Under the pieces are notes generated by a model. That model was given only the letters and a program-made list of their open reading frames with translations, was not told where the DNA came from and made no database searches. Of a stretch of DNA of 64,000 nucleotides, positions 895-53,410 are shown piece after piece. Within the stretch, counting starts at the first letter, position 1. Each line of letters opens with the position of its first letter. Made by a program: the position numbers and the translations under genes. The DNA comes from Chitinophagales bacterium (lineage in GTDB: Bacteria > Bacteroidota > Bacteroidia > Chitinophagales > Saprospiraceae), in the NCBI GenBank assembly GCA_013299105.1, contig JAAFJY010000001.1:204978-268977 (forward strand). Direction: 5' to 3'.

Positions 895-1026
895 GGAAGC
901 AAAAAACCAAGATAAACGAGTTTAGGCTTAGTGAAAAAAGACAAGCAACTGACTGGAAGAAAGTTGTGTACTTTTTTTGCTAAACTTCAATAGCAAAGTT
1001 GTTTACCTTGTTTTAGCTCGGATACC
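895..1026 (+). repeat. Dispersed palindromic element, copy A
   Basis: A diverged copy of the 130-146 bp intergenic element. The left arm has AGATAAACGAGTTT and the right arm GTTGTTTACCTTG followed by TTTTAGCTC. The central hairpin GCAACT...AAGTTGTG is kept. The arms belong to the TAAAC type, on both sides. Confidence 0.75.
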
Positions 1027-1137
1027 TAGCGGCTTTGAGACAAAAAACACAACGGTTTTTCGTCAGTTGAGCTTGCTTTTAGCGAAGATAACTGGGACTG
1101 CTTTCGCTAAAAGAGGTGAAGGATCACGGAAAACGGC

Positions 1138-1192
1138 TTTTTGGGGCCGAAATGGGAGCAGGGTAAGTTTTTACCAATTTTTAATTCAGTAA
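1138..1192 (+). repeat. Short dispersed repeat (GGCCGAAATGGGAGCAGGGT type)
   Basis: The motif TTTTTGGGGCCGAAATGGGA followed by GCAGGGTAAGTTTTTA recurs with small changes at 36806-36868 and 24845-24885. Function unknown. Confidence 0.6.
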
Positions 1193-1260
1193 GCAATCGC
1201 TGTTGCGGGGTGATGTGCCACCGTCAACAGCCAATTTGAGGCTATAAAAAACAGAGCGCC

Positions 1261-2196
1261 ATGACATTCAAGGTTATTCTGTCGGGAAGATTGGAATTTG
1301 GTCACGACAGGTCTTTTGAAATTGCATTAAAGTCTTTCAATCATCAGGTAGAAAGTCTCTACCGCAATGATGTATTACTCAAAGCTGAACAAGTTTTTGT
1401 TGCAGATGCTTTTGTGTTAGATATTCCACGTTTAATTATCCCAGTTGCTAGTGACAAGTCTTGGCGCAACACTGTAAGTATCCTGGATAACATGGCGCAA
1501 TTTGCTCTCGCAGGCTCAGTTTCAGCCTGGAAACTGGACAACAGCACCCTGGCTGATAATGCTACATTGGAGCCCAAAGGTGATAAAACTGCGGTTCAGT
1601 CTTTTCTGAAAGGCCGTACTTTCTTGCACGAAGGCAAGCAAAGTGAAGCCCATACAGCTTTGACCCAAGCTATTGAAAAATTTGAACGCCACGCGTTGGC
1701 TTACGAGAAAAGAGGTTTTGTAAACTTTCAATTGGGCAATGTAGAAGATGCTTTGTACGATTTTTCAAAGAGCATCGACTTCAACCCCAATAGCCCGGAT
1801 GCACACATGGGGCGTGCCATTATCCGTATGACACAGAGGAACTTCACTGCTGCCATCACGGATTTGGAAAACGCAGTCAAAACTTCGATTCCACACCAAA
1901 CCATCCACTTCCGCGCCCGCCGCATGAAAGGGGAATGCCACTTGGAATTGGGCGAATTTGCGAAGGCTGAGTTCGAGTTGAAACTGGTGACGGCCCGTAG
2001 CTTCACAAACCAGGACCCCAATGCTGCCTGGCAGCACCGCGCATGGTTCAACTATGGCCGTACCCTGCATGGTTTAAACAAATTCACCGAGGCTAAAACC
2101 GCCTTGGATCGCGCCCTCCAGTTTGAGTCAGAGCCTTCTGACGCGCTGAAAAGTCTTTATAATGATGTACTGGAAAAGTGCAACATTCGAGCTTAA
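1261..2196 (+). CDS. TPR-repeat protein
   Basis: A 311-residue protein without a signal peptide or membrane segment, so probably cytoplasmic. Residues 1-100 are not recognised; they include a stretch on fixed-length beta/alpha sequence (AFVLDIPRLIIPVASDKSW). Residues about 115-300 form tetratricopeptide repeats, with typical positions such as ALAYEKRGFVNFQLGNVEDA and ALYDFSKSIDFNPNSPDAH. TPR arrays bind partner proteins, and the partner is unknown here. The ATG at 1261 follows a spacer with no strong ribosome-binding site, as is usual in this phylum. A clear rho-independent terminator sits 42 bases after the stop, so the gene is probably transcribed alone. Confidence 0.75.
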   Translation: MTFKVILSGRLEFGHDRSFEIALKSFNHQVESLYRNDVLLKAEQVFVADAFVLDIPRLIIPVASDKSWRNTVSILDNMAQFALAGSVSAWKLDNSTLADNATLEPKGDKTAVQSFLKGRTFLHEGKQSEAHTALTQAIEKFERHALAYEKRGFVNFQLGNVEDALYDFSKSIDFNPNSPDAHMGRAIIRMTQRNFTAAITDLENAVKTSIPHQTIHFRARRMKGECHLELGEFAKAEFELKLVTARSFTNQDPNAAWQHRAWFNYGRTLHGLNKFTEAKTALDRALQFESEPSDALKSLYNDVLEKCNIRA

Positions 2197-2237
2197 AACG
2201 ATCATTGATTCGTAGATACCTTTGAATATACCCTATG

Positions 2238-2272
2238 CGGTGCTCAGATCTGTTTTTGGGCACCGTTTTTTT
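2238..2272 (+). terminator. Rho-independent terminator after the TPR gene
   Basis: CGGTGC pairs with GCACCG across a 16-base loop and is followed directly by seven T residues. Confidence 0.8.
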
Positions 2273-2279
2273 ATGCGGG

Positions 2280-2385
2280 ATTTTTTTGGTCTAAATCAGA
2301 ATTGCAGAATTACTTGCGTGACGTTGACTAAAACAAGGATTTTAAAGGATTAGAAAATTAGCCCGATTTGCGGCCATGAACGCTT
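2280..2385 (+). repeat. Dispersed repeat (GTCTAAATCAGAATT type)
   Basis: Begins GGTCTAAATCAGAATTGCAG, passes through a GTTGACTAAAAC segment and ends near GCCCGATTTGCGGCC. Relatives lie at 2461-2515, 2640-2727 (inverted), 5190-5255 (inverted) and 36946-37055. Confidence 0.65.
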
Positions 2386-2460
2386 CATCTTCATCATAAA
2401 AATCACAAAATTCATAACTACCGAAACTTCACCGAAATTTTCAGGATTTTCAGGGTTACC

Positions 2461-2515
2461 TAATTCCAGAATTACTTACGTGGTGTTGACCAAATTTAGG
2501 GCTTGCAAAAGAATA
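2461..2515 (+). repeat. Dispersed repeat (GTCTAAATCAGAATT type), partial
   Basis: Shares about 30 identical bases, including CCAGAATTACTTACGTGGTG, with the copy at 36974-37005. Confidence 0.65.
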
Positions 2516-2639
2516 AGTTATAAAAATTGGCAGGGCAAATTTTGAGTTAAGTGGGGGCCAACATCATGCTGGAAATCAGTTGAATCTGTTTTTTCTGTGT
2601 TCCCATCACGTGCCGTGTCACGCCTTGGCATGAAAGCGG

Positions 2640-2727
2640 GCCAATTCTCTAATTCTTTGAACTTCTGGTTTTGGTCAACGTCATGCAAGAAATTCTGCAA
2701 TTCTGGCAATTCTGGTTTAGACAAAAA
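2640..2727 (-). repeat. Dispersed repeat (GTCTAAATCAGAATT type), inverted
   Basis: The reverse complement reads GTCTAAACCAGAATT... CAGAATTTCTTGCATGACG... and matches the copy at 2280-2385. Confidence 0.65.
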
Positions 2728-2851
2728 CCCTACATAAAAAAGTCGCGCCAGGAATGTTGCCAAAAAGACTTTTGGTACTCTAAATTACACTTCAAGCAAA
2801 ACACAATTTTAAAGCCACAAAGCGCGTCTTTTCACAAAAATCAGGCTTCTC

Positions 2852-4768
2852 ATGCGCCAAGTTCTGCTATTCTGCTGCATTAGTTTTTTGAACACTGTAA
2901 CGCTGTTCGCTCAAGACAATTTTACCACCCGCAAAACCACCAGCCCCAAGGTGCTGAAAGCCTACGACGAAGCATTTGAACTGGTCAAAACACAAAAACT
3001 GGACAAAGCGCTGGAGATTTTGCAAAAAACGCAGACGCAAGACCCCAAATTCATCGACGCGCCCATTTTGATGGCCCAAATCAAGTACGACCAGGGCAAA
3101 TATGCCGAATCTATCGCCCTGTACCAAAAAGCCCTGGCCCTTGGCCCAGACTACCGCCCCCGACTGTATTATCAACTGGCCCTTACGCAACTGAACCTGG
3201 AGCAGTATACCGACGCCATCACCAGCCTGGAACAGTTTTTGAAACGCGAAAAAACCAACCAAGACCTGATCAGAAGGGCCCAAAAGCACCTGCGCAATGC
3301 CCAATTTGCCAAAGACGCGGTGCTGAAACCCGTGTCGTTCAAACCTGAAAAACTTCCCCCCAGCATCAACACATCCGAGCACAATGAAACCCTGCCTTCG
3401 CTCAGCGCAGATGGGCAAACCATCATTTTTACCCGCCGACTGGGCAAGCAGGAAGATTTTTTTGTCAGCAAAAAAGAAAACGGACAATGGATGCCTGCGC
3501 AAGCCCTCGCTGCCCTCAACTCTGAACTGAGCGAAGGGGGACACTCCCTGAGCGCCGACGGGCGGACTTTGGTTTACACCGGATGCAACGTGCCGGGTGG
3601 CCTGGGTAGTTGTGATTTGTACATTTCTAGCCAACAAAACGGACAATGGACCCCATCCGCCAACCTCAAAGGTCCAGTCAATACCCGTGCTTGGGAGTCA
3701 CAAGCTTCACTTTCGGCAGATGGGAAGATTTTATTTTTTGCCAGCGACCGCCCCGGCGGACTGGGGGGGCGCGACATCTGGCAAACCCAGCGCCAATCCG
3801 ATGGCAACTGGAGCACCCCGAGCAACCTAGGCGCAACAATCAATACGCCCGATGAAGACCAGGCCCCATTTTTTCATCCCGACGGAAATTCCTTGTACTT
3901 CATGTCGGACGGGCACGCGGGCATGGGTGGCACCGACCTTTTTGTAGCCCGCAAACAAGCCGACGGCAGCTGGGGAAAACCCCAAAACTTGGGTTATCCG
4001 ATCAATACCCGCGCCGATGAAGGGGCCCTGGTCGTGAGTTTGGATGGCACCCAAGCTTACTACACTGGCGGCACACCTGACGGCAAACTCGATATTTATA
4101 CCTTCTCTCTACCCGCCGAGGATCGTCCACAACCGGTGACCTACGCTCGTGGACTGGTATTTGATGCCAAAACCCAGCAAAGCCTGGCTGCCAAAGTAGA
4201 ACTGATTGATTTGGCCACCAAGCAAGTACTGATCCAACAGGAAACCTCAGCAGATGGCATTTTCCTGGTTTGCCTGCCCTTAGGCAAAAACTACGCCCTG
4301 AACGTGAACAAGGCCCAGTACCTTTTCTATTCCGACAATTTTGCCCTGCAAGAAAAACGCAACCAAGCCGAGCCTTTTGAACTAAAAGTGCCCTTGCAGG
4401 CCATTACTAGCAACAATACGCCAGTGGTTGGGCAGCCCGTAATATTGAAAAACGTGTTTTTTGCCAGCGGCTCGGCGGCCTTGCAACCCGAATCCAATGC
4501 CGAGTTGCAGCGCCTAAACGACTTACTCAAGCAAAACCCTAACCTGAAAATCCGCATCCACGGCCATACCGACAATGTAGGCGACGATACCACCAACCAA
4601 AAACTTTCGGAGCAACGGGCCAAAGCCGTGTACGACTACTTGGTGCAACAAGGCATACCACCTATCCGCCTTGCCTACCAAGGCTTCGGAGAAAGCAAAC
4701 CGATTGCCGACAACAATACGGCGGAAGGTCGGCAAGTGAATCGGCGGACGGAGTTTGTGGTGTTTTAG
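2852..4768 (+). CDS. TPR-PD40-OmpA outer-membrane family protein
   Basis: A 638-residue exported protein. Residues 1-21 are a signal peptide ending LFAQ. Residues 35-150 are TPR repeats, followed by a beta-propeller of PD40/WD40-like repeats (about 175-420) with recurring 'LSADG..I.F.S.R.GG.GG.DI' blades. A carboxypeptidase-regulatory-like domain (about 435-510) comes next, and the C-terminal 110 residues are an OmpA/MotB domain with 'FASGSAALQP', 'IRIHGHTDNVGDD' and 'NRRTEFV'. In this phylum the architecture is typical of envelope proteins whose OmpA domain clasps peptidoglycan while the propeller faces the outside; some relatives are encoded with gliding/T9SS-associated PorE-like proteins. 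It stands alone here, so a secretion role is inference only. Confidence 0.88.
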   Translation: MRQVLLFCCISFLNTVTLFAQDNFTTRKTTSPKVLKAYDEAFELVKTQKLDKALEILQKTQTQDPKFIDAPILMAQIKYDQGKYAESIALYQKALALGPDYRPRLYYQLALTQLNLEQYTDAITSLEQFLKREKTNQDLIRRAQKHLRNAQFAKDAVLKPVSFKPEKLPPSINTSEHNETLPSLSADGQTIIFTRRLGKQEDFFVSKKENGQWMPAQALAALNSELSEGGHSLSADGRTLVYTGCNVPGGLGSCDLYISSQQNGQWTPSANLKGPVNTRAWESQASLSADGKILFFASDRPGGLGGRDIWQTQRQSDGNWSTPSNLGATINTPDEDQAPFFHPDGNSLYFMSDGHAGMGGTDLFVARKQADGSWGKPQNLGYPINTRADEGALVVSLDGTQAYYTGGTPDGKLDIYTFSLPAEDRPQPVTYARGLVFDAKTQQSLAAKVELIDLATKQVLIQQETSADGIFLVCLPLGKNYALNVNKAQYLFYSDNFALQEKRNQAEPFELKVPLQAITSNNTPVVGQPVILKNVFFASGSAALQPESNAELQRLNDLLKQNPNLKIRIHGHTDNVGDDTTNQKLSEQRAKAVYDYLVQQGIPPIRLAYQGFGESKPIADNNTAEGRQVNRRTEFVVF

Positions 4769-4854
4769 TTGAAATGTGGAAATGTTGAAGGGCTGAAGAG
4801 AGGGAAATCATTTGGCCTTGTCTGAAGACTTGACACCAGCATAACTTCGACTTG

Positions 4855-4905
4855 AAGTTGGTTCTAGGTCTCTAACCGGAATTTGTTTCCACATGTTTGT
4901 AACGC
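4855..4905 (-). repeat. Repeat shared with the nested-hairpin region at 34.4 kb
   Basis: GGTTCTAGGTCTCTAACCGG followed by CATGTTTGTAACGCTTAAA matches the reverse complement of 34352-34405. Confidence 0.55.
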
Positions 4906-4985
4906 TTAAACAGAGGGTGCAGCTCCAGATGTAGAGGTCAAGCTTTTTGACAGATATTTATCGGAGCTCAAACGGGCCTTGAGCA

Positions 4986-5161
4986 AATCCCGATAAGAAA
5001 ATTTTACCCTGATTTTGACTTATGAAAATCCGGATTATTGGGCAATGAAGCGGTCTTTTTCATTTTTGTGAAAATTTTGCGCGAAACCTGAGATCAAGAA
5101 AAAAAGAAAAAGGACTTTTTTGTGAAAACTAATGTACTGAAAACTTCGGTGAAGTTTTTGT
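4986..5161 (+). repeat. Long dispersed repeat, plus copy
   Basis: Aligns over about 170 bases with the reverse complement of 11091-11275. Shared blocks include GATAAGAAAATTTTA, CCTGATTTTGAC, AATTTTGCGCGAAAC and ACTTCGGTG. It may be an old element or a diverged non-coding RNA. Confidence 0.6.
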
Positions 5162-5189
5162 AGCTGCGATTTTTATAGTGAACATGCAG

Positions 5190-5255
5190 TGTTTATGACC
5201 GCGAATCGGGCCGATTCTGAAATTCTTTCAAATTCTGGTTTAGACGAAAAAGTCT
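5190..5255 (-). repeat. Dispersed repeat (GTCTAAATCAGAATT type), inverted
   Basis: CCGCGAATCGGGC...AATTCTGGTTTAGAC is the reverse complement of the 2280-2385 type. Confidence 0.55.
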
Positions 5256-5433
5256 TGCTTGATTATCGAGATCGCTTTTCTCCGAAGTTTTCAGAATGTA
5301 TCAAATTTGAGTGAACTTTTTCGTTTAAAAGTACATCTAACGGGAGCCGCATCCTTTTCCAACAGCGTAAGGAAAACAAAGCCCAACCCACCATTCACCC
5401 CCCCTACTCATAACTCATCATTCATAACTCCCC

Positions 5434-6414: not shown

Positions 6415-6426
6415 GTAGTTAAGGGA

Positions 6427-7911: not shown

Positions 7912-8024
7912 GTGATATTGCTGCTTTCTGGTGGAAGAAGTGTTCTTGGCCTAAGTTTATCGATTTTCAAAAATACAAGATTTTATCTGAAAGCGAAAGG
8001 GAATGTTTTTCCCTCCTCAACTTT

Positions 8025-8170
8025 AGTATTTGAGCTAAAATAAGGTGGCCATATTTGCTTTTGAGGTTTAGCAAAAAAAGAACACAACTTCCTTTCATCC
8101 AGTTGCTTAAACTGGTAGTGATCTTTTTTCACTAAACCCAAATCCGTCCACCTTATTTTTTTACGCTCCC
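8025..8170 (-). repeat. Dispersed palindromic element, copy B
   Basis: A full copy, about 146 bases because of a small central insertion. In element orientation it begins GGGAGCGTAAAAAAATAAGG and ends TATTTTAGCTCAAATACT. Both inner arms are of the GGTGG type (GGTGGACGGATTT and, read inward from the other end, GGTGGCCATATTT). It touches the stop codon of the lactonase gene and lies upstream of the ATP-grasp gene. Confidence 0.85.
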
Positions 8171-9334
8171 TTACCTAAACTTAACACAAACAGGTGTGGG
8201 TGTCTTGACTTCATTCCTGAATGTCAGGTCGCCATTGGCTTCGAGGGCAAAAATCACGATGTTGTCGCTGTTTTGATTGGCGGCATACACAAAGCGGCCA
8301 TCGGGCGAAAGGGCAAAGTTGCGCGGGAAATCGCCTTGGGTTGGCGTGTACCCCAACGCATTGAGCTGCCCATTGACTGCCACCGCGTAGCGGGCCAGAC
8401 TGTTGTGTCCCCGGTTGGCGGCAAACAAGAATTGGCCATCGGGGCTGAGGTGGATGTCGGAACAATAATTGGCAGCCTTAAAATCGGCGGGTAGGGTACT
8501 GATTTTTTGCAAAATGCTCAAAGTTCCCTTGCTCTTGTCCCAGCTCAAAGCAATGACCGTGCTGTTGAGTTCATTGACCACGTAGGCGAACTGCCCATTG
8601 GGGTGAAAAGCCAGGTGGCGCGGCCCCGATCCCGCAGGCAGTTTGCAAGGAGCCATTGCTTCCAGTATTGGCCCATTGCTTACGTAACGCACTTTGAAGC
8701 AGTGGATTTGATCCAGCCCCAAGTCGGGTACATATAGGTATTGTTCATCGGGAGAAAGGACCGTGCTGTGCGGGTGCGAGGCGTCTTGCCGGGGGGTGCT
8801 GCCTTTGCCGGGGAATTTCATCCAAACCGTTCTTTGGCTCAGTTCGCCATTGTCTTTCAAGCCGTATGCGGCGATGCTGCCGCCGTAATTGGCCACAAAC
8901 AGGGCCTTGCCCGCCCGGTCGCCGCTCACATAACAAGGTGCAAAGCTACCCGAAGAAACCTGGTTCAGTTTTTTCAATTGCCCCTCTTGCCAGGCGAAAG
9001 CCACTACGCGGCCCGCAGTATCCACTTCAGGCGAGCCAATTTCTTCGACGGCATACACAAAACGGCCATTGTCGCTGGGCCACAAAAAGGAGGGGTTGAC
9101 CAAATCGCCCTGGGCTTCGATGGGATCGAGATAGCCCGAAGTGCTGTCGAGGCTGAAGAGGTGAATGCCCTGGCCTTTGCCGTCCACATGGCCTTCTTTG
9201 CGGGTGTAAGTGCCTACAAAAGCATCATAGGTTTTGGCTTTTTTGGCGCTGGTTTTTTCTGTACTGGGTTTGGGATTGCAGGCTTGGGCCAGCAGGAGTA
9301 GGCCGAAAAGGGCCAGGTACAATGGTTTTTGCAT
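8171..9334 (-). CDS. Lactonase-family lipoprotein (6-phosphogluconolactonase type beta-propeller)
   Basis: A 387-residue seven-bladed beta-propeller of the lactonase/YbhE (Pfam lactonase) family. Residues 1-19 form a lipoprotein signal ending LLLAQAC, so the protein should be anchored in the envelope rather than in the cytosol where the pentose-phosphate enzyme works. Family marks include 'FVGTYTRKEG', 'ASHPHSTVLSPDEQYLYVPDLG', 'GSGPRHLAFHPNGQFAYVVNEL' and 'GDFPRNFALSPDGRFVYAANQN'. The enzyme class opens sugar lactones, but many members have no tested substrate. A second oddity is position: its stop codon abuts palindromic element B. Confidence 0.85.
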   Translation of the reverse strand: MQKPLYLALFGLLLLAQACNPKPSTEKTSAKKAKTYDAFVGTYTRKEGHVDGKGQGIHLFSLDSTSGYLDPIEAQGDLVNPSFLWPSDNGRFVYAVEEIGSPEVDTAGRVVAFAWQEGQLKKLNQVSSGSFAPCYVSGDRAGKALFVANYGGSIAAYGLKDNGELSQRTVWMKFPGKGSTPRQDASHPHSTVLSPDEQYLYVPDLGLDQIHCFKVRYVSNGPILEAMAPCKLPAGSGPRHLAFHPNGQFAYVVNELNSTVIALSWDKSKGTLSILQKISTLPADFKAANYCSDIHLSPDGQFLFAANRGHNSLARYAVAVNGQLNALGYTPTQGDFPRNFALSPDGRFVYAANQNSDNIVIFALEANGDLTFRNEVKTPTPVCVKFR

Positions 9335-9362
9335 GGTTATGGGCTTTTGTGGGGGGAAAATA

Positions 9363-11090: not shown

Positions 11091-11275
11091 ATGTAATTTT
11101 GAACGAAAAAGTACACCGAAGTCTAATGTATTGGATTTCAAAATAAAGCCCTTTTCCTTTTTTTTTGACTTCCCGTTTCGCGCAAAATTTTAGCAAAAAT
11201 GAAAATGACCGCTTTTCTGCCGGATAATCCGGGTTTATATAGGTCAAAATCAGGATAAAATTTTCTTATTAGGAT
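11091..11275 (-). repeat. Long dispersed repeat, minus copy
   Basis: Inverted partner of 4986-5161. The reverse complement shares TAAGAAAATTTTATCCTGAT, AAAGCGGTCATTTTCATTTT and AAAATTTTGCGCGAAACGGG with it. Confidence 0.6.
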
Positions 11276-11412
11276 TTTTAACACTTATTAAAAATAAATA
11301 AAAAATTAAATTTCGTTTCACTCTGCAATTTGAGCGCAAACGAAATAAAAGCAGGTTTTTGCTCCATTTTTTTATTTTTCAATTACGCGGGACGTGAACT
11401 TAGTGACAAGCC

Positions 11413-11683
11413 ACGAATAAACCTTACCAAATCGCAACTGGTTGCCCCGCTGCGCGAGGCTATTTTGGGAACGCGGATAAAATTGGGTTTGGGTGTGTTG
11501 GTTTGGGTGTGAGTGTGAGAAAACTCCGTTTTCAAGTGATCGGAGACGAAGGTTAATGCTCGAAGCTCCCACACTCGAACTCGCACTTACACACTTCAAA
11601 CCCTTTCTTGTGGATTTCCAGCATTACGTTGACCATGATGTTGACAACTGGCAATCAAAAAACTTGGTAAGGTTTATTTTTGA
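11413..11683. repeat. GT-rich hairpin element, copy 1
   Basis: The outer arms are an inverted pair, AATAAACCTTACCAAA (11416) and TTGGTAAGGTTTATT (11664). Inside, a GT-rich arm (GGGTTTGGGTGTGTTGGTTT, then GGGTGTGAGTGTGAG) faces an AC-rich arm (CTCCCACACTCGAACTCGCA, then CTTACACACTTC). Copies lie at 60535-60750 and 61218-61560. Confidence 0.7.
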
Positions 11684-16689: not shown

Positions 16690-16763
16690 GGCGCGATAGC
16701 TCAGTCGGTTAGAGCACACGATTCATAATCGTGAGGTCGAGGGTTCAAGTCTCTCTCGCGCTA
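16690..16763 (+). tRNA. tRNA-Met (CAT)
   Basis: A 74-nt cloverleaf without encoded CCA. The acceptor GGCGCGA pairs with TCGCGCT (one G-T pair), the D-arm contains AGCTCAGTCGGTTAGAGC, the anticodon stem CACGA/TCGTG holds the loop TTCATAA with anticodon CAT at 16724-16726, and the T-arm has GGTTCAAGT. The sequence looks like the elongator type; a lysidine-modified tRNA-Ile (CAT) is the alternative. Confidence 0.93.
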
Positions 16764-16770
16764 CAACCTA

Positions 16771-16890: not shown

Positions 16891-17436
16891 ATGAAAAAAA
16901 TAGCGTACCTGCTCTTGCTGGGCGTTTTTGCACTGAGTACACCAGCCCTCGCCCAAGGCGGCATGTCAGACAAGGAGAAAAAAGAACTCGCCAAGGAAAA
17001 AGCCGACGCGGCCAAAGAAGCGGCAAAAGCCAAGGAAGAAGCGGCCAAGGAAGCCGCAGAAGCCAAAAAGGATGCGGCCAAAGACAAAGCGGAGGCTGCT
17101 AAAGACGCTGCGGAAGCCAAAGAAGACGCCAAAAAAGACGCCGAAAAGCAAAAAGCAGCTGCGGCCAAAGAAAAAGCCGAAGCACAAAAAATGGCCGCCA
17201 AAGACAAAGCTGAAGCTGCAAAAGCCAAGGAAAAAGCCAAAAAAGAGGCCATGAAGGAGAAAGAAAAGGTCAAAAAAGAGACCGAAAAGGCCAAAGCTCA
17301 AGCTAAAAAAGATGCCGAAAAAGACAAAGCAGAACTAGCCAAAGAAAAAGCCCAGGCTAAAAAAGACGCTGCTAAAGAAAAGGAAATGCTGGCCAAAGAA
17401 AAGGCCAAAGCCGCCAAGGAGGCCAAGAAGAATTAG
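16891..17436 (+). CDS. Secreted Lys/Ala/Glu-rich coiled-coil protein
   Basis: A 181-residue protein with a clear signal peptide ('MKKIAYLLLLGVFALSTPALAQ', 1-22). The rest is almost only Lys, Ala, Glu, Asp and Gln in repeats such as KAEAAKDAAEAKEDAKKDAE. It should form one long, highly charged single helix or coiled coil in the periplasm, somewhat like the charged linker of TolA or histone-H1-like proteins. Function unknown. The DNA is internally repetitive, which creates long false open frames on the other strand. A strong terminator follows 23 bases after the stop. Confidence 0.75.
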   Translation: MKKIAYLLLLGVFALSTPALAQGGMSDKEKKELAKEKADAAKEAAKAKEEAAKEAAEAKKDAAKDKAEAAKDAAEAKEDAKKDAEKQKAAAAKEKAEAQKMAAKDKAEAAKAKEKAKKEAMKEKEKVKKETEKAKAQAKKDAEKDKAELAKEKAQAKKDAAKEKEMLAKEKAKAAKEAKKN

Positions 17437-24337: not shown

Positions 24338-24468
24338 GGGAGCGTAAAACATAAGGTGGACGATTTAAGTTTAGTGAAAAAAGAAAAGCAACGGAATGAA
24401 AAGGAGTTGTGTTCTTTTTTGCTAAACCTCGAAAACAAGTATCTCCACCTTATTTTAGCTCAAATACT
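24338..24468 (+). repeat. Dispersed palindromic element, copy C
   Basis: Full copy. It begins GGGAGCGTAAAACATAAGGT and ends TATTTTAGCTCAAATACT. Both arms are of the GGTGG type (GGTGGACGATTT and, from the other end, GGTGGAGATACTTG). Confidence 0.85.
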
Positions 24469-28113: not shown

Positions 28114-28248
28114 AGTATTTGAGCTAAATTAAACTGGACTTATTTTGCTTTTGAGGTTGAGTAAAAAAAGAACACAACTTCCGTTCATCCAGTTGCTTTT
28201 CTTTTTTCACTCAACCCAAATCCGTCCACCTTATTTTTTTACGCTCCC
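28114..28248 (-). repeat. Dispersed palindromic element, copy D
   Basis: Full copy in the divergent spacer between the DapA-family and adenosine deaminase genes. Both inner arms carry TGGAC (GGTGGACGGATTT and ACTGGACTTATTT read inward). Confidence 0.85.
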
Positions 28249-36630: not shown

Positions 36631-36690
36631 AAGGAGCGTAAAATAATAAGGCAACCGAGTTTGGGTTCAGTGAAAAAAGAACTAAAAATT
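36631..36690 (+). repeat. Dispersed palindromic element, truncated copy E
   Basis: Only the left half is recognisable: GGAGCGTAAAATAATAAGGC, then AACCGAGTTTGGGTTCAGTG and AAAAAAGA. The central hairpin and right arm are missing. Confidence 0.6.
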
Positions 36691-36945: not shown

Positions 36946-37055
36946 TTTTTTTGTCTAAATCAGAATTTGCAGGATTCCAGAATTACTTACGTGGTGTTGA
37001 CCAAAACCAGAATTTGAAAGAATTAGAGAATTGTCACGCTTCGCGTGAGAGCGCG
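36946..37055 (+). repeat. Dispersed repeat (GTCTAAATCAGAATT type)
   Basis: TTTGTCTAAATCAGAATTTG...CCAGAATTACTTACGTGGTG...AATTAGAGAATTG. It ends at a small CACGCTTCGCGTG hairpin. Confidence 0.65.
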
Positions 37056-37230: not shown

Positions 37231-38048
37231 TTAGGAGGACACGGCAGCGTTCTTAGTGAACGAGAACCCGTTTAGAGGAACACTGGGATGAAGCATGACT
37301 AAGTTATCCACGGTATCTTTTCCGCCATGAATGCGTTGGGTAATGTGGTGAAAGTGCCAGCCTGATTTGAGGTCGATCAGTCCATTACAATACGGACAGC
37401 GTAACTGTTGTCGGTTGAAGATATAGCGTAACTGTTGTCGGCCATGCCATTTAGCCATCATTTTTCGCTGCACTCTTAACTCGAAGTAAGGTTCGTCGCT
37501 CGGTTCATAAATATTAGCCTTGCTGTCGATCTTGGTGTGTCTTTGGATGGGGATTGAAGCCACGTGAAAAAGTGTAACTTGATGTTGCGTTTCTTCGTCA
37601 GTACCAAAAAACAGCCAATCTCTGCCCTCAATTCGAGTAAAATAGCGATTTTTAATCCACATGACATTCTTTTTTCCAGAGTGCCTGCGTTATATAGATC
37701 CGACGTACTGCTTTGGCTTAGTAGCCTTTTAAGCGTAGTTGATGGACCGCTCTTTGCTTGGCAGGAGCCGTTGGCCAAGTTTGGCCGTCGATCCCTGCGG
37801 TGTGTTTTCCTTGGTTCTCGGTCACTCGTCTTACCGCCAGTAGCTTTGCTGGCTGTCACTGCCTTTGCGATACGGATTTGAAGGGATTTTACAGTATGGT
37901 TGACCACACCCCAGTCGATGTAGTGCCACCACAGGTTGTCTGCACCAGCCGCATTAATGCCTTTGAGCAAGTATTGATCAGGTATGCTTTGGACACTATC
38001 CATGTGCTTGCTGGTTTTGCTAAAATCTGCTGTCTTCTCCTCTCGCAC
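37231..38048 (-). pseudogene. Group II intron reverse transcriptase/maturase remnant
   Basis: Three pieces in different frames. First, 'WHYIDWGVVNHTVKSLQIR' then IAKAV (about 37860-37940), the start of the RT-0 region. Second, after a frameshift and small loss, 'AKLLAVRRVTENQGKHTAGI' then DGQTW...AVHQLRLKGY, an in-frame stop, and AKAVRRIYI (about 37700-37845). Third, a jump of some 300 codons to the C-terminal 'ASIPIQRHTKI...YFE' and the HNH endonuclease 'LRCPYCNGLIDL...WHFHHITQRIHGGKDTVDNL', with its last Cys-His segment damaged. RT domains 1-7 and most of the X domain are missing, so no active protein is possible. Confidence 0.85.
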
Positions 38049-40937: not shown

Positions 40938-41068
40938 GGGGAGCCCAAAAAATAAGGTAAATGGGTTTGGGTTTAGTGAAATAAGTTAAACAACAGATTG
41001 AAAGAAAGTTGTATTTTTTTACTAAACCTCAAAAGCAGGTTCGTTTACTTTATTTTAGCTCAACTATT
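40938..41068 (+). repeat. Dispersed palindromic element, copy F
   Basis: Full copy with TAAA-type arms on both sides (AAGGTAAATGGGTTTGGG and, from the other end, AAAGTAAACGAACC). The left end is slightly changed (GGGGAGCCCAAAAAATAAGG). Confidence 0.82.
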
Positions 41069-45561: not shown

Positions 45562-45597
45562 TGCTACATGTTTTTACCCTTGACAAAAGGTGCTTAA

Positions 45598-46290: not shown

Positions 46291-46330
46291 GATGACTTGA
46301 TTTTATGGTCCTGAAAAATCAGGGCCCAGT

Positions 46331-47044
46331 TTACTTTTTTTGCGATTCCAGGTAAGGCAAATAAACCGCCAAACCTGTTTGCATCATATCGGACACTCCT
46401 ACAGAGGTAATGGTGGCTCCAGAGATGCCATCGACCTCATGCTCAGGATCTTTTGCGCCGCCTTTGATTACTTTAACAGACACATAATCCCCTTCGTTCG
46501 TGAAAATTTTTTTTCCGACAAACTGCTTGCCAAAGTTAGGATTGTCCTTGATCTCAGCGCCCAAACCAGGGGTTTCGGCGGCGTGACCAAAGGAGGTGCC
46601 CACGATGGTATTCATGTCGTCTTTCATTGCCACATAGGCCCAGATTTTGTCCCAAAGGCCATTGCCGCGCACGGCCATGAGGTAAACCTTGCCTTTTTCG
46701 CCTTTGTAAACAAAAATCGGGTAACGCCTCTCGGCTTCGGGTTTCCTTTCTTCCACCGCCAGGTCAATCGACTCCGCACTGACACCATCCACCGGGGTGC
46801 CTTCGGCGTTGATGACCACTTGCTCTACGTTTTTGTTGAACAAATCGAGGACTTGCTCGTCGCTCATCTTGTCGAGGTCTTGCCCCAATTGGTCTTTGAT
46901 CGAGCCCAGCAGGTCGCGTTTTTTGTACACCGCTTCGGCTGCATCGTGGAAAGGTTTGAGGCCAATGACTGCCAGAGCCAGGCCAATCGCCACGATGAGG
47001 GTCATGATCAGGGTGTAGATGGTGATATAGCGGTTACTGTACAT
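46331..47044 (-). CDS. nqrC: Na+-translocating NADH-quinone reductase subunit C
   Basis: A 237-residue subunit with one N-terminal helix ('YITIYTLIMTLIVAIGLALAVIGL') and a periplasmic FMN domain. The flavinylation motif is 'DGISGATITS', where a Thr carries FMN through a phosphoester bond made by ApbE; no apbE is in this window. Its start overlaps the nqrB stop by 11 bases, a sign of translational coupling. Confidence 0.96.
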   Translation of the reverse strand: MYSNRYITIYTLIMTLIVAIGLALAVIGLKPFHDAAEAVYKKRDLLGSIKDQLGQDLDKMSDEQVLDLFNKNVEQVVINAEGTPVDGVSAESIDLAVEERKPEAERRYPIFVYKGEKGKVYLMAVRGNGLWDKIWAYVAMKDDMNTIVGTSFGHAAETPGLGAEIKDNPNFGKQFVGKKIFTNEGDYVSVKVIKGGAKDPEHEVDGISGATITSVGVSDMMQTGLAVYLPYLESQKK

Positions 47045-48296: not shown

Positions 48297-48322
48297 CGCT
48301 TAGGGCGTGATTTGTCAGGTAA

Positions 48323-49966
48323 TTACAAGCCTTCTTTTTGCATCATTTTGATGCCATCGCGTAGGATTTTCTGCAAAGGTTGCTTGGACGTGCAGGCGAA
48401 TTCGCAGAGGGCTACATCCTCTTCCACCAGTTCGTGAATACCCAAACCTTGCATGCGCTCCACGTCACCTACGATGATCGATTTCATCAGGTGTTGTGGA
48501 TAAACATCCATTGGAAGCAAGTTTTCGTACTGGCCTGTTACCACAAAAGCGCGTTTTTCGCCGCGTGTATTGGTATCGGGGCTGAAACGCATGTCGTGAA
48601 ACAAGCTAGTCAAGTATGTTTTGGAAGCACTTGGAATAGCCTTGGAGGGCAACAACCAACCAAACATATCATAATCATCTCCTTCAGGAATAACCGTGAT
48701 CTGGTCGTCGAAGGTGCCCAGGAATTGAGTTGCACTTTTTGCTTTGCCCGACAACACATCGCCCGAAATGATGCGCAGTTTGCTGCGGTCTTCAGCGATT
48801 TGTCCTTTAAGCAAGTCGGCCAAACTTGCACCTAAGTGCGTACGGATATAGCCTGGACTACTTACTTCCGAGCCGCCAAGGGCTACCACACGGGTCGTAT
48901 CGTATTTTTTTTCGCCGAACAAAGTACCGATGGTAATGACTTCTTGTACTCCTAGGGTCCACACCTTTTGGCTGCCGCGAATGGGGCTGATGTGGTGGAT
49001 CTGTACACCCACGTTACCAGCAGGATGTTTGCCTTTGAACCATACTTTTTCAACTCCACTTGCGTGGGTAAAAGCTGTAGAAGGTTGTTCGGCAGCATTC
49101 AAGCCCAGGTAAACCTTGCCATCCGTCAGGTGGCCCAGTACATTTAGGCCCTCTTGGAAAGCCGCCTCACGGCCTTCGACCACCAAATCAAGATTGGGAG
49201 CCAAGGGAGCGGTGTCAAATGTGGAGATGAAAATATTGACAGGTACCACTGCTGGATCAGCTACTATATTATAAGGTCGTTGCCGAATCAGTGGTATTGC
49301 GCCATATTCACAAAGGAATTCGATGATTTCACTGCGATTGGCTTTATCCAGCGCAGGTAGGTTTTTGATTTCTCGTGACTTTTGGGTTTTGTCGGCCAAA
49401 ATGACCACTTCGGTAATGGCCCGCTTGTCGCCGCGATTGATGGCGATCACTTCACCACTGACCGGAGCTACGAACTTGACCTCCGGACGGGCTTTGTCAA
49501 AAAACAAAGGATCGCCAGCCAACACTGATGATCCTACTTCTACTTCCAATTTGGGCAAAGGCGAAATGCCTTGGAAATCGGGAGCTTGCAAAGCAAAAGT
49601 CTGCACCGAAGCAGACTGGACTTTGCCTCCAGGCTGGCCTTCCAGCATGATGTCATGGCCTTTTTTGAGGCTTTTGATGCTGGCTTTACCCACGAATTGT
49701 GGCTTGTCGGCAGGAAACAACTCATCGCTATCGGGCATTACCCCATAGTTGACCCCTTCTTTTTCAACCCCCAAACGGCGCGACTCCATGATCAACATGT
49801 TGTCAGATACGCGCATGATGGCCATGAACAGCAATACAACTGCCGCTGCCAACATGCCGTATAGCAGTGTATTTCCAGCACTAGCAGATGGGGTTTGGGC
49901 AAACAGTGGTACAGTGAAAAAAAGACAAAGGGCAAAAAGGACTAACCCAGTTCTGGATTTATTCAT
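48323..49966 (-). CDS. nqrA: Na+-translocating NADH-quinone reductase subunit A, with N-terminal membrane extension
   Basis: A 547-residue first subunit. The usual NqrA begins at about residue 98 here ('IKSLKKGHDIMLEGQPG'), followed by 'FVAPVSGEVIAINRGDKRAI', 'GAIPLIRQRPYN', 'IHHISPIRGSQKVWTLGVQEV' and the C-terminal 'VEEDVALCEFACTSKQPLQ'. Vibrio NqrA is about 446 residues and has no membrane segment. This one has about 97 extra residues: a hydrophobic signal-like helix (5-23, ending LFAQ) and a second helix (34-52, 'LLYGMLAAAVVLLFMAIMR'). It is therefore probably membrane-tethered. First gene of the operon. Confidence 0.93.
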   Translation of the reverse strand: MNKSRTGLVLFALCLFFTVPLFAQTPSASAGNTLLYGMLAAAVVLLFMAIMRVSDNMLIMESRRLGVEKEGVNYGVMPDSDELFPADKPQFVGKASIKSLKKGHDIMLEGQPGGKVQSASVQTFALQAPDFQGISPLPKLEVEVGSSVLAGDPLFFDKARPEVKFVAPVSGEVIAINRGDKRAITEVVILADKTQKSREIKNLPALDKANRSEIIEFLCEYGAIPLIRQRPYNIVADPAVVPVNIFISTFDTAPLAPNLDLVVEGREAAFQEGLNVLGHLTDGKVYLGLNAAEQPSTAFTHASGVEKVWFKGKHPAGNVGVQIHHISPIRGSQKVWTLGVQEVITIGTLFGEKKYDTTRVVALGGSEVSSPGYIRTHLGASLADLLKGQIAEDRSKLRIISGDVLSGKAKSATQFLGTFDDQITVIPEGDDYDMFGWLLPSKAIPSASKTYLTSLFHDMRFSPDTNTRGEKRAFVVTGQYENLLPMDVYPQHLMKSIIVGDVERMQGLGIHELVEEDVALCEFACTSKQPLQKILRDGIKMMQKEGL

Positions 49967-50021
49967 AACAAGGCTTATTTACAGCAAGGAATGAAAACGC
50001 AGTAATTTCGTCTTCCACCTC

Positions 50022-50029
50022 CAAATGTA
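50022..50029 (-). promoter_or_regulatory. Candidate -7 box for the nqr operon
   Basis: On the minus strand TACATTTG matches TAnnTTTG about 56 bases ahead of the nqrA start. No clear TTG lies at the right upstream distance, so the call is weak. Confidence 0.35.
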
Positions 50030-50075
50030 AAAAAATGATTGAAATTCATGGGAATATTGGCGTAAAATTTGCTAA

Positions 50076-50209
50076 GGGAGCGTGAAAAAATAAGGTAAAC
50101 GAGTTTGGGTCTAGTGAAAAAAGATAAACAACTGGATGAAAGGAAGTTGTGTTCTTTTTTTGCTAAACCTCAAAAGCAAAGTTGTTTAGCTTATTTTAGC
50201 TCAAATACT
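50076..50209 (+). repeat. Dispersed palindromic element, copy G
   Basis: Full copy upstream of nqrA. It begins GGGAGCGTGAAAAAATAAGG and ends CTTATTTTAGCTCAAATACT. Both arms are of the TAAAC type (GGTAAACGAGTTTGGG and, from the other end, GCTAAACAACTTTGC). Confidence 0.87.
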
Positions 50210-50256
50210 AACTTGTTGTTTTTACCAACTTTTTAGCGATTTATTGGCCCCCCTAT

Positions 50257-51102
50257 TTAGGGTTTGCCGGCCAAATACTCCTTCACCCGCTCCATAAACA
50301 AGACTTGCAGGCGGCCCGTAATTGGTCCAGGTTTCCCATCGCCAATCACTTGCTCATCGACTTGTCTAATCGACATGGCACCTTTGGTAGTACTGGTGAA
50401 AAAAGCTTCGCGAGCAGTAGCCAATTCGCTGATATGGACTTCGCGTTCTTCAACTACGATGCCATTTTTGTGGGCGAGATCCAAAATCTGTTTGCGGGTC
50501 ACGCCCCACAGGATTTTTTCGGGAGTAGTCACGATGTGCCCCGCAGCAGTGACTAGGTAAAAATTTGAACGGGCCGATTCGCGCAGGTATTCGCCATCGA
50601 CGTACACCAGGTCCTGGGCATTGGCGGCTTTTACTTCCTTGAGTTTGCGGATTCCCATCGCGTAGTTAGTAGTTTTCACCTCCGGCAAATCGCGCTGAAA
50701 AGGCACCGTGATGACCTTGATGCCGGTGGGCGAAAACTCCCAAGTATTGGCTGGTAAATCGTATACCATGATCGCCAGATTGGGATCAGTAGGCGTATAA
50801 CCGTCGGGCGAATAACCGCCAGTCAACAACAAACGAATGCCCGCATCGCGCATTTCGTTGGCGGCGAGTAAGTCGTAAAGGTGTTGGGTAAAAACCGAAC
50901 GCGAGAAAGGAATTTTCAAGTCTAATGACTCTGCTGAACGGTAAAAGCGGTCTAGGTAATCATCAAGAAAAAGCGGATGCCCCTCGCGGGCCAGGAAATA
51001 GTCGAAAATGCCGAAACCCCTTAACAAACCAATGTCTGAGATGTGCAAAACCGACTTTTCGATGGGCGTTATTTCGCCGTTGATGTGGTAGAATTTGGGC
51101 AT
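50257..51102 (-). CDS. Class IV PLP aminotransferase
   Basis: A 281-residue fold-type IV enzyme of the branched-chain/D-amino-acid aminotransferase or aminodeoxychorismate lyase group. Motifs are 'ISDIGLLRGFGIFDYFLAREG' near the N-terminus, 'TTNYAMGIRKLKEVKAANAQDLVYVDG' containing the likely PLP lysine, 'ESARSNFYLVTAAGHIVTTPE', and 'TSTTKGAMSIRQVDEQVIGDGKPGPIT'. Substrate choice among these cannot be made by eye. The ATG at 51102 is preferred; the 25 codons above it are unlike the family and would nearly touch upp. Confidence 0.88.
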   Translation of the reverse strand: MPKFYHINGEITPIEKSVLHISDIGLLRGFGIFDYFLAREGHPLFLDDYLDRFYRSAESLDLKIPFSRSVFTQHLYDLLAANEMRDAGIRLLLTGGYSPDGYTPTDPNLAIMVYDLPANTWEFSPTGIKVITVPFQRDLPEVKTTNYAMGIRKLKEVKAANAQDLVYVDGEYLRESARSNFYLVTAAGHIVTTPEKILWGVTRKQILDLAHKNGIVVEEREVHISELATAREAFFTSTTKGAMSIRQVDEQVIGDGKPGPITGRLQVLFMERVKEYLAGKP

Positions 51103-51177
51103 GATGAAGGGCGTGATAGATAAACTTATTGGAGGCGAATTACTGGTTTTTACGGGAGAAAACAAAAATTGATGCAA

Positions 51178-51840
51178 TTATTCCTGCAGCTTTTCGCCAA
51201 AGGCGAGGTCGCCAGCATCCCCCAAGCCTGGCACAATATAAGACTTGGCGGTTAGTTCTTCGTCAATGGCTCCGGTCCAAAGGCAAGCCTGCGGGAAATT
51301 GCGCTGCACATATTCTACCCCCGGCATAGCAGCGATCGCGGTCACAAAATGGATAGCAGCAGGCTGGCCCATTGTCAGCAGTTGTTTGGCAGCTAAAACC
51401 ATCGACGCTCCTGTAGCGAGCATGGGATCGGCCAGAATCAGGGTTTTACCTTCCAGACTGGGGCAAGAAAGGTATTCGAGGTGGATGTCAAAACTGCCAT
51501 CTTTGTGGTGCTTCCGGTAAGCAGAAATGAAAGCGTTTTCAGCTTGGTCAAAATAATTCAACAAACCTTGGTGCAAGGGCAAACCTGCCCGCAGAATGGT
51601 AGCCAAAACAAGGGGATGTTTAGGTACCGTGCAGGGCGCAATGCCGAGCGGTGTTTCGACATCCAGGGGCTCATAATCAAGTTTTTTGCTCAACTCATAG
51701 CCCAGGATTTCACCCAGTCGCTCCATATTGCGCCTGAAACGCAAACGGTCATTTTGGCGATTTACATCTCGCATTTCGGCAATAAAACTGCCTGCAATGC
51801 TGTTGGCCTGACTCAGGTTGAATACAAATGGGCGCGACAT
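51178..51840 (-). CDS. upp: Uracil phosphoribosyltransferase
   Basis: A 220-residue type I PRTase that makes UMP from uracil and PRPP for pyrimidine salvage. 'TILRAGLPLHQGLLNYFDQAENAFISAYRK' holds the conserved base-side segment and 'LILADPMLATGASMVLAAKQLL' is the PRPP-binding loop. It ends 'YIVPGLGDAGDLAFG', a signature of Upp. The class IV aminotransferase gene follows 75 bases downstream on the same strand. Confidence 0.93.
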   Translation of the reverse strand: MSRPFVFNLSQANSIAGSFIAEMRDVNRQNDRLRFRRNMERLGEILGYELSKKLDYEPLDVETPLGIAPCTVPKHPLVLATILRAGLPLHQGLLNYFDQAENAFISAYRKHHKDGSFDIHLEYLSCPSLEGKTLILADPMLATGASMVLAAKQLLTMGQPAAIHFVTAIAAMPGVEYVQRNFPQACLWTGAIDEELTAKSYIVPGLGDAGDLAFGEKLQE

Positions 51841-52330
51841 GAGCGGTGGATTTTAAACACGCTCCAAAAGTACAGGATATTTGTATTTTTGGTATAACGA
51901 CTTGGTAAGAAACTGTTTTTAAGACACCCTTCGGGCCATAAAATACCATCTTTTGGAGTCATACTGCGAAGTTTTTGAAGCGATAGCCCCGGCTAGTCGG
52001 CTAGGAATAAAATAGTTTTCTACATTATTTGGTGAATCAATGTTTGAGTTTGATTGAAGCATAGTCCACCTCCCAAATGCCAAAACGTGTAACGAAATGT
52101 TGATGCTAACGTTGAAATCCCATTAGCGAGCACGCTTCGCAAGAAGCCAAAAGCTTTGTAGAACCTGGGTTTCAATGGGGAGTTCGGGCTTCGGAGAAGC
52201 CTAAGACATCAAAAATCTGATGCTTCTTGCGAAGCTGGGCATTAGGGATGCTTTAAGGCACAGGCGTAAAAATGTAATGGCTTATTATTTCGTTCGCATC
52301 GCATTAGTCAGTTGAAAGGCCTCATCCTGA
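51841..52330. other. Intergenic region with an inverted repeat
   Basis: No gene is supported. It holds a 26-29 base inverted repeat, CCCATTAGCGAGCACGCTTC...AAGAAGC at 52119 and GCTTCTTGCGAAGCTGGGCA...TTAGGG at 52222-52247, and a short string near 52290 (TTATTTCGTTCGCATCG) that recalls 36910-36930. Confidence 0.6.
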
Positions 52331-53233
52331 TCAAATTTTAAGGTAGGGCATTTTGAAATTTGCATTCGGTTTCAAATAAACGAATGCGCGCCGGGCGTCT
52401 AAAATCCAGTTGAATCTTTTGAGGACATCCCCACCCATGATACTTATTTTTTGATTCCCCAGGGCACCTGCAAAAAAGCCCACCGAAACATCGGACAGTG
52501 GATGCTTTCCAATCTTCAGGGCGGGCATAATAGCTTTCTTCGTTTTGATGACATTACCATAAGAATCTTTTAGCGCTTTTTCACCAACGATTTCTAATTT
52601 TTCATTCAGCTTGTTGTCATTTGCAAATTTGTCATCCAGTAAAATACTTCCTGCATAACCCGAATGGATAAGGAATCTATTCGTTAGAACATTATTTTTT
52701 TCTATCTCGCAATCCGCCTCCATAAACATAGAGCCGTTGTCATATGATAATTGATGTTTTTCAAATCCTTTGAGGTATTTAGGCAATTTGTCGGATAAAA
52801 TGATTACTTTCCTTTCAAAATCTATGGCTACAAACTTACCTTTAAAGAGGTCTAACCCAATTTTACCGTCTGTAAATTGTCCGGAATGCTTGTTTTCGGT
52901 GATCGTTAAACTATCCCACCTGAGCCCTTCGATGGTCAATGAATTGTGCGCACTCACTCGTGCCCCATCCGTTTGGCCGCCCCAACTTTTTATGCCGTCA
53001 ATGCTCCTATCAAAAATTGGACTTTTAAGCCTTTTTGTTGCTTCTTCGGTAAGCGTTACATCGGTGGCTCCAGTATGAAGCATCAATTGAACGGTATCTT
53101 TTTGGTTAAGAACGGCACGAATGGATATGTTGTTGAATGAAGTCAGTTGAAACGGAATAATTGTCTTATCCGTTTGTCCAAAGGCAATTTGGCAGATTGC
53201 CAATGTCAAAAACGTAATGATGTATTGCTGCAT
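52331..53233 (-). CDS. Retropepsin-like aspartic protease relative with both catalytic Asp replaced by His
   Basis: A 300-residue secreted protein (signal peptide 1-19, ending AFGQ) built of two lobes, like the bacterial aspartyl-protease family. The first-lobe motif reads 'VQLMLHTGATDVTLTEEA' and the second 'RFLIHSGYAGSILLDD', so the expected DTG/DSG are HTG (H53) and HSG (H190). The flap and hydrophobic-hydrophobic-Gly parts ('GKIGLDLF', 'IMGGDVLKRF') are kept. Both changes are in equivalent positions, so they look selected, giving either a binding protein or a different active site. Palindromic element H lies upstream. Confidence 0.75.
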   Translation of the reverse strand: MQQYIITFLTLAICQIAFGQTDKTIIPFQLTSFNNISIRAVLNQKDTVQLMLHTGATDVTLTEEATKRLKSPIFDRSIDGIKSWGGQTDGARVSAHNSLTIEGLRWDSLTITENKHSGQFTDGKIGLDLFKGKFVAIDFERKVIILSDKLPKYLKGFEKHQLSYDNGSMFMEADCEIEKNNVLTNRFLIHSGYAGSILLDDKFANDNKLNEKLEIVGEKALKDSYGNVIKTKKAIMPALKIGKHPLSDVSVGFFAGALGNQKISIMGGDVLKRFNWILDARRAFVYLKPNANFKMPYLKI

Positions 53234-53275
53234 TTTGATTGGTTTTTAAACGCATGTTTGAATAATGGTGGATCA

Positions 53276-53410
53276 GGGAGCGTAAAAAATAAGGTGGCCC
53301 GATTTGAGTTTAGTGAAAAAAGATAAACAACTGGATGAAAGGAAGTTGTGTTATTTTTTTTGCTAAACCTAAAAAAGCAAATACGTCCATTTTAATTTAG
53401 CTCAAATACT
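53276..53410 (+). repeat. Dispersed palindromic element, copy H
   Basis: Full copy between two divergent genes (spacer 53234-53602). It begins GGGAGCGTAAAAAATAAGGT and ends TTTAGCTCAAATACT. Both arms are of the TGG type (GGTGGCCCGATTTGAG and, from the other end, AATGGACGTATTTGC). Confidence 0.87.

Follow-up and report, generated by a model that had tools for sequence, protein, structure and literature searches.

A dispersed 133-bp hairpin repeat of Saprospiraceae with the traits of a non-autonomous mobile element

Introduction

Short palindromic repeats scattered through bacterial genomes are a known kind of sequence, described as ERIC, Correia and other bacterial miniature inverted-repeat transposable elements (MITEs), and by analogy it is to this kind that the repeat examined here belongs (PMC2229807, PMC10969869). 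We describe a 133-bp hairpin element found in several copies in a 64,000-nucleotide stretch of DNA, here called the window, from a Chitinophagales bacterium of the Saprospiraceae (GenBank assembly GCA_013299105.1, contig JAAFJY010000001.1, positions 204,978 to 268,977, forward strand). The element has the MITE traits of short length, target site duplication and inverted repeats, the last being subterminal (nucleotides (nt) 13-32), with the outermost 12 nt unmatched. Genomes, contigs and loci are cited where needed under working labels (G, C and L numbers), and published systems are compared as they appear in excerpts of the cited papers.

The excerpted descriptions of ERIC (IRU, RU-1) from enterobacteria give a length of 127 bp, near the 133 bp of the hairpin element (PMC2759123), and the two are alike in being intergenic and in having inverted repeats and a target duplication, with ERIC forming stem-loop transcripts and numbering 30 to 711 per genome (PMC2229807, PMC10969869). 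The termini set them apart: those of ERIC are given as TA, whereas the hairpin element duplicates a variable triplet with a preference for TWA. Correia/NEMIS of Neisseria is likewise short, with inverted repeats and a target duplication, and RNase III processing of its transcripts has been proposed (PMC2229807); its terminal repeats are described as 24 bp long with TA ends, in contrast to the subterminal repeat and unlike tips seen here. In Porphyromonas, BrickBuilt/MITE464 and the IS5-family insertion sequences (ISs) ISPg1 and ISPg4 have ends that begin GAGAC, comparable to the left tip GAGACGG of two families of the present element (PMC4596501). The excerpt further states that Porphyromonas MITEs share 12-bp terminal repeats with ISs (PMC4596501), whereas for the hairpin element the search met no IS with matching ends, and that BrickBuilt holds 23-nt tandem repeats where the hairpin element holds a conserved hairpin. 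REP and REPIN sequences with TnpA-REP are also dispersed hairpins, but of far smaller units (PMC3733652), and the profile of REP/BIME with RAYT (20-40 bp, no target duplication) differs from that of a 133-bp element with one.

No paper on this hairpin family was found in the open-licence literature, judged by titles and the starts of abstracts, and no Rfam match was obtained, the presence of ERIC in Rfam not having been checked. With a layout that does not depend on sequence, the family appears to be undescribed. What is unusual about it is that families without shared stem sequence have this layout in common, in which the subterminal repeats stand in register and the inner hairpin is offset by a nearly constant amount.

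Insertion at a duplicated triplet

The repeat is shown to insert at a 3-bp target, preferentially TWA, that is duplicated on insertion. When the element is taken to run from GGGAGCG to AATAC, 63 of 93 copies in the source genome (95 full matches minus two without tips) carry the same triplet on both sides, against 16.7 expected and a maximum of 29 in 10,000 shuffles. The same ends give identical triplets in 31/53 copies of an earlier, smaller set (8.2 expected), which was drawn from 67 matches by removing 12 with a repeated 50-base key or at edges (copy 2 of the window among them) and then 2/55 without tips; in copies from relatives the figure is 21/25. The sequence-only reading of the window had seen no clear target duplication, and this was wrong, since even there the triplets are equal in four of seven copies (CTA, TAA, TTT and TAA, with the end set at AATAC). 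Placing the element end at AATA with a 4-bp duplication accounted for 12/53 copies (2.7 expected) and was rejected, as the end one base further fits better (31/53); zero counts for duplications of 4-6 bases come from the shifted register and are uninformative on longer duplications. The terminal C belongs to the element because C is its last base in 86/93 copies and precedes the left triplet in only 40/93.

The commonest identical triplets are TAA (22) and TTA (16), with AAA, ATA, CAA, TTT, TAC, TAT, TTG, TCT, ATT and CTA making up the other identical pairs, and this variety therefore marks them as a duplication rather than a fixed part of the element. Among the 63 matched copies, the base before the left triplet is C in 31, and the base after the right triplet is G in 31, a preference for CTWAG-like targets. 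A called open reading frame (ORF) uses the triplet next to the element as its stop codon in 10 cases.

Sites without the element were sought by comparing 14 insertions of the complete relative G193 with the sister genomes G259, G490 and G225, and nine flank pairs align across an element-free junction (eight in G259, one in G225). The triplet is intact at five of these nine empty junctions (AAA at L117 and L119, TAA at L149 and L135, TTA at L126). G259 and G193 share one insertion in the same flanking sequence (134 bp at L100 in G259; cut down to 74 bp at L154 in G193, between two CAA triplets), and four products of internal deletion, 23, 70, 74 and 44 bp long, keep identical triplets (C12:11047, C9:76815, and L154 and L156 of G193). 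A non-autonomous mobile element was among the possibilities raised by the sequence-only reading, and it is this one that duplicated triplets, empty sites, genome-wide copies and patchy presence among relatives support.

A layout shared by families with unrelated stems

The anatomy of the element is given below for a reference copy of the window (copy 6), numbered from its left end; all parts are on the plus strand.

50076 to 50087: left tip, nt 1-12, which the right tip does not match in register (consensus comparison).
50088 to 50107: left subterminal inverted repeat, nt 13-32, forming the outer stem; 18 of 20 positions match in the source-genome consensus.
50108 to 50169: inner hairpin, nt 33-94, with a stem, a 3/2 internal loop and an apical stem with the central motif.
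50170 to 50176: nt 95-101, bulging from the right arm only, with 7 nt there and none in the left arm (consensus fold).
50177 to 50196: right subterminal inverted repeat, nt 102-121 (consensus comparison).
50197 to 50208: right tip, nt 122-133, ending in AATAC.

Several families with unrelated arms carry this arrangement, among them A (in G000, G193 and G259), B (in G193, G225 and G259) and C (in G308). Left ends begin GGGAGCG or GTGAGCG in A, GAGACGG or GGGACGG in B and GAGACGG in C, other families differing again, and 14/21 representatives end in TAC. In ungapped end-to-end comparison, nt 13-32 match their counterparts at 18, 19, 19 and 17 of 20 positions in G000, family A of G193, family B of G225 and family C of G308, and the tips (nt 1-12) of the same four representatives match at 3, 5, 3 and 2 of 12. 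Such repeats are what a pair of binding sites equidistant from the cut would look like.

Inward of nt 32 the register is lost: the right arm carries 4-7 more unpaired bases than the left in 19/21 representatives, placed at nt 30-32 in 17; the bulge is missing in G452 and G561 and lies elsewhere in G353 and in the shorter G339. A 3/2 internal loop is present in 11/21, and the apical stem-loop carries CAACTGACTGAAAGGAAGTTG or a relative of it. The predicted layout is shown to recur where the stem sequence is unrelated. Of the 21 representatives, 16 were found by a model containing the layout, so the set is not independent of it; families A, B and C had initially come to light through a model trained on the source genome alone or through a motif pattern. 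We also observed a G+C-rich hairpin (GCCTGCCTGCCTTGCGGCGAGCAGGCAGG or close) in the apical loop at L117, L118, L119 and L149 of G193 and at L114 of G225, that is, in two families and two genomes.

Pairing within the genome and between families

The sequence-only reading had proposed that paired changes in the two arms reflect selection on base pairing, and the answer differs with the level of comparison. Within the source genome, an R-scape-like test of our own (FastTree tree, Fitch changes moved along branches, a G statistic with average product correction, 60 null alignments) found none of 46 structural pairs to covary beyond the tree-based null. Its power is low, the tree having been built from these short columns themselves. 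None of the three top-scoring column pairs (28-106, 107-111 and 108-115) is a base pair of the structure. Rare changes, present in three copies or fewer, at one side of a Watson-Crick pair yield G-U and A-C in similar numbers (36 vs 42, p = 0.57), and compensated cells with a rare change number 4/172 across the 93 copies, with 1.1 expected and up to 6 in shuffles. A wobble excess among shared states had been considered as a sign of selection on RNA, and was dropped as absent from the rare changes. Resident copies seem to change without regard to pairing. Paired columns depart from the consensus less than unpaired ones (0.075 vs 0.119), which weighs against such pairing-blind change, and the difference may be explained by the layout of hot columns or by constraint at the level of source copies. 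Within the genome, then, the joint change of the arms is subfamily linkage.

Between families, selection on pairing does find support. In an alignment of 34 sequences (A4), whose members within a family do not count as independent events, paired cells make up 90.6%, compared with 77.5% after shuffling, and sliding the partners by 1-3 columns lowers pairing to 43-58%; five long-loop relatives were omitted from it, and its 14 source-genome copies were picked randomly among those of 131-134 bp. Changes on both sides occur in 25/42 pairs, compared with 17.4 in shuffles, distributed as 9/18 in the outer stem, 11/16 in the inner stem and 5/8 in the apical stem, and the covariation score of 0.361 (0.149 shuffled) was reached in none of 500 shuffles. 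Taken together, two-sided change between families and pairing-blind change among resident copies suggest that it is the propagating lineage, rather than the resident copies, that keeps the arms paired.

Distribution among relatives

The one named relative found for the NqrA protein of the window comes from an uncultured Saprospiraceae bacterium (55% identity). For the hairpin element, BLAST gave no match in 39 relatives, four congeners included (one of them in four contigs). The initial covariance model, trained on 53 source-genome copies, matched 5/298 genomes of the order, its own included, and a pattern of the central motif matched 7/398 genomes of the family, with no match for a reversed control. 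A second covariance model (R2, from 34 copies in four groups) extended this to 29/398 Saprospiraceae genomes in 15/112 genera, again counting the source: 23 match at E below 1e-9, and six are weaker and less sure, down to 6e-4 (G452, G561, G339, G457, G459 and G402). R2 found no match in the four congeners or in G387, a genome detected by the motif pattern, and among 395 genomes drawn from the phylum it matched the source genome alone; in both the phylum and family searches strict filters were used, by which weak matches are lost. Eight of 24 loci from the family search lie at contig ends and were not folded. Plasmid and phage collections held no match.

Abundance and subtypes in the source genome

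A search beyond the window showed that copies are not confined to it, with 95 full and 21 partial matches in 2.05 Mb (seven contigs, window included). This density, one full copy per 21.6 kb, extrapolates to about 355 copies genome-wide, a rough figure given that the seven contigs were picked for length and for copies already listed there. The central-motif pattern provides an independent lower figure of 197 places, while in the whole genome (7.67 Mb, 77 contigs) BLAST found at least 40 near-full copies and the covariance model at least 150 matches. The 93 copies analysed measure 128-146 bp (within a set limit of 126-150 bp, all 93 with tips inside), which leaves no room for a transposase gene. 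Locus L026 was kept out of the counts as too long. Identity to the nearest neighbour has a median of 94.6% and a maximum of 98.5% among these aligned copies, and the genome outside the sample may contain closer pairs.

A subclass of 141-146 bp makes up 23/93 copies (for example window positions 8026-8170) and, where read, carries a 12-bp extra stretch such as TCACTACCAGTT to the left of the apical stem.

Spacer classes are close to expectation from spacer lengths, with 51 tandem, 28 divergent and 12 convergent (51/23/17 expected), and in tandem spacers the same and opposite strands are used 28 and 23 times, showing no preference. This context says nothing of function.

The copies in the window

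The window holds seven copies and a half copy, whose places and two orientations the sequence-only reading had right.

895 to 1025, plus strand: copy 1, AA/TT arms, flanks CTA/CTA.
8026 to 8170, minus strand: copy 2, GG/CC arms, 12-bp extra stretch below the apical stem, flanks TAA/TAA.
24338 to 24467, plus strand: copy 3, GG/CC arms, flanks TTA/TCA, not identical.
28115 to 28248, minus strand: copy 4, GG/CC arms, flanks TTT/TTT.
36631 to 36681, plus strand: half copy (left half), broken after GTGAAAAAAGA.
40939 to 41067, plus strand: copy 5, AA/TT arms, flanks TTG/TTA, not identical.
50076 to 50208, plus strand: copy 6, AA/TT arms, flanks TAA/TAA, the reference copy for anatomy.
53276 to 53409, plus strand: copy 7, GG/CC arms, flanks TCA/TTA, not identical.

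ORF 8171-9334 (Pfam Lactonase) has as its stop codon the TAA at 8171-8173 (minus strand), next to copy 2. All seven copies fold better than the mean of their own dinucleotide shuffles (z from -2.1 to -7.1), the weakest fold being that of copy 1, which 7/200 shuffles equalled, and no Rfam family reached its gathering score for them. Other features of that first description change with scale. The matching of inner arms holds in all seven window copies and is no rule in the sample of 93, where 56 are GG/CC, 13 AA/TT and 24 mixed. Confinement to spacers nearly holds, in sequence of which called ORFs take up about 85%: two of 93 copies lie inside a called ORF, one of these ORFs being only 101 aa long. 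The density in the window, seven in 64 kb, exceeds that of the whole sample, which makes the window a dense patch.

Besides the hairpin element, the window contains a second dispersed repeat family rich in GGGTTTGGGTGTG (11465-11643, 60521-60698, 61214-61259 and 61316-61517) and further dispersed direct or inverted repeats, ATTCCAGAATTACTTACGTGG... and others (2297-2727, 4985-5241, 11141-11277 and 36948-37045). A group II intron domain (Rfam RF00029; 37129-37203, minus strand) adjoins an ORF for an HNH endonuclease (37231-37662, minus strand), the pair perhaps being the remains of a group II intron. ORF 16891-17436, just after a tRNA-Met (16690-16764), has many imperfect repeats of Lys/Glu/Ala codons.

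Candidate mobilising enzymes and interrupted copies

Tips of the hairpin element were sought around the 21 partial copies, eight PF01609 loci of the source genome, five NF033580 loci in five genomes and nine PF13586 loci in seven genomes. Two of the eight PF01609 loci contain a broken copy, the right part in L160 (also L169 and L285) and the left part in L162; neither L160 nor L162 has a second tip, and no tip pair surrounds a gene. Tips found at a distance from these partial copies belong to other full copies or are weak matches (one at C9:112.8 kb, one at C1:307 kb). About 2.6 kb past the end of the window, L160:1076-2027 holds an IS5-family IS with a 282-aa transposase (NF033580), inverted repeats GAAGCCGTTTTAAAATCC and TTA on both sides, and an IS5-family IS of G193 (L170) has inverted repeats GAGCCTGTTTAAAA and TAA on both sides. 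PIF/Harbinger transposons, which the excerpted account groups with the IS5 family in a single tree, also make 3-bp duplications (PMC12730594).

Five interrupted copies (C1:304455, C1:314525, C12:234475, C12:457276 and C9:114615) each hold about 95-420 bp of foreign sequence, too short, as read by eye, for a usual transposase. Another dispersed repeat, with ends GTAAGTTCTCAATC...ATTGAGAACTTAC (C1:304455-304825, C1:57660-57890 and L160 at about 790-810), is inserted in two hairpin copies, the first with an 8-bp duplication by eye, and borders a broken third. Separately, two hairpin copies (C9:114615-114920 and C1:314525-314850) are interrupted at the same inner-stem TAA by repeat-like sequences of roughly 150-200 bp, and the right end of the first insertion recurs at C2:2650; these two insertions may use a target of the same kind as the hairpin element does.

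Probable origin of the repeat and a proposed role of its fold

We consider it probable that the repeat belongs to a Saprospiraceae family of MITE-like mobile elements that are non-autonomous, are moved in trans by a transposase and propagate in a way that depends on their fold. The enzyme would most likely be a DDE transposase with a 3-bp staggered cut, of the IS5/PIF type, which would bind the subterminal repeats at nt 13-32, cut at the tips and join the element to a target cut with a 3-bp stagger. The triplet flanks of the IS5-family ISs in L160 and L170 speak for such an enzyme. The inner hairpin, folded in one strand of RNA or single-stranded DNA, would be needed for propagation, and the stems would stay paired despite changes of letter because the hairpin must fold. 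If only well-paired source copies leave progeny, stems would drift together between lineages, and the two arm types of the source genome would descend from different source copies.

Several results weigh against this account. Among the nine empty junctions, four have a changed triplet or a loose junction alignment, and the L126 site in G225 was aligned over just 8 bases on its left. The structure used for the between-family comparison was predicted from the same alignment, and the models behind that alignment already contain it. Single stem mismatches between families are G-U rather than A-C by 42:14 overall and 27:14 when collapsed by family (p = 0.06), which gives no more than a hint that the folded strand may be RNA. 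No autonomous element with the tips of the hairpin element was found in the three transposase families scanned across a few genomes, and neither the L160 nor the L170 IS has its ends. NF033580 was not found in G225 or G308 and is present only in broken form in G259, and PF13586 was not found in G225, G259, G308 or G336.

The repeat could instead be an ordinary MITE, in which a lost IS supplied the long inverted repeats that make up the palindrome, the fold has no role and each family derives from a different IS. This is possible, although we think it doubtful. Subterminal repeats in register from both ends are as double-strand binding sites would be, and resident copies show no selection on pairing. 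Porphyromonas belongs to the same phylum as the source bacterium. MITEs with IS5-family ends are described there in the excerpted report (PMC4596501). Independent derivation would not give a centre and hairpin layout common to families with unrelated arms, however, and the inner stem, which is offset and out of register, yet changes on both sides in most of its pairs between families. Movement of the element as a REP-type sequence by a Y1 (TnpA-REP/RAYT) transposase acting through single-stranded hairpins would fit intergenic imperfect palindromes in hundreds of copies by extrapolation; it is highly improbable, as duplicated variable triplets are unfit for a single-strand mechanism. To our knowledge, neither the single-strand Y1 mechanism makes a target duplication nor do REP and REPIN sequences have a variable one. 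The 133-bp units also contrast with REPs of 20-40 bp in the excerpted source (PMC3733652).

Arm-to-arm repair or conversion in resident copies, a possibility also raised by the sequence-only reading, would keep arms alike within lineages and different between them, as observed, but compensated rare changes lie within the range of shuffles and mixed arm states are common (24/93), so resident copies give it no clear support and we hold it improbable. A regulatory RNA or protein-binding site kept per copy by selection (a REP/BIME-like host function, RNA processing or a terminator) is suggested by the stable hairpins and by the intergenic position of nearly all copies. Set against it are rare changes that yield wobble and A-C states alike, the lack of strand preference with spacer classes near length expectation, the empty sites, the absence from congeners and the lack of an Rfam match, and we judge it quite improbable; the terminator variant was rejected, no terminator-like site being seen at two copies scanned.

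A more specific version of the fold-dependent mobile element would define the family by the fold of one strand: the mobilising machinery would read the inner hairpin, with its one-sided bulge, internal loop and apical stem-loop, as folded single-stranded DNA or RNA, so that stem letters are exchangeable while the shape is kept. We regard this as unlikely, albeit worth stating: if true, it would combine a transposase that duplicates its target with recognition of the substrate by structure.

Implications

How ERIC-like palindromic elements move, and what role their fold plays, is a long-standing question. We know of no enzyme that mobilises ERIC and of no report of ERIC stems replaced between genera with the layout kept. 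The family described here is a good system for asking what the fold is for, combining 15 genera, unrelated stems, an expansion to about 355 copies in the source genome with none found in four congeners, target duplications and empty sites, and its layout offers a search handle for the mobilising enzyme. The findings suggest a family of very small mobile elements, little known so far, in which shape is conserved as much as sequence.

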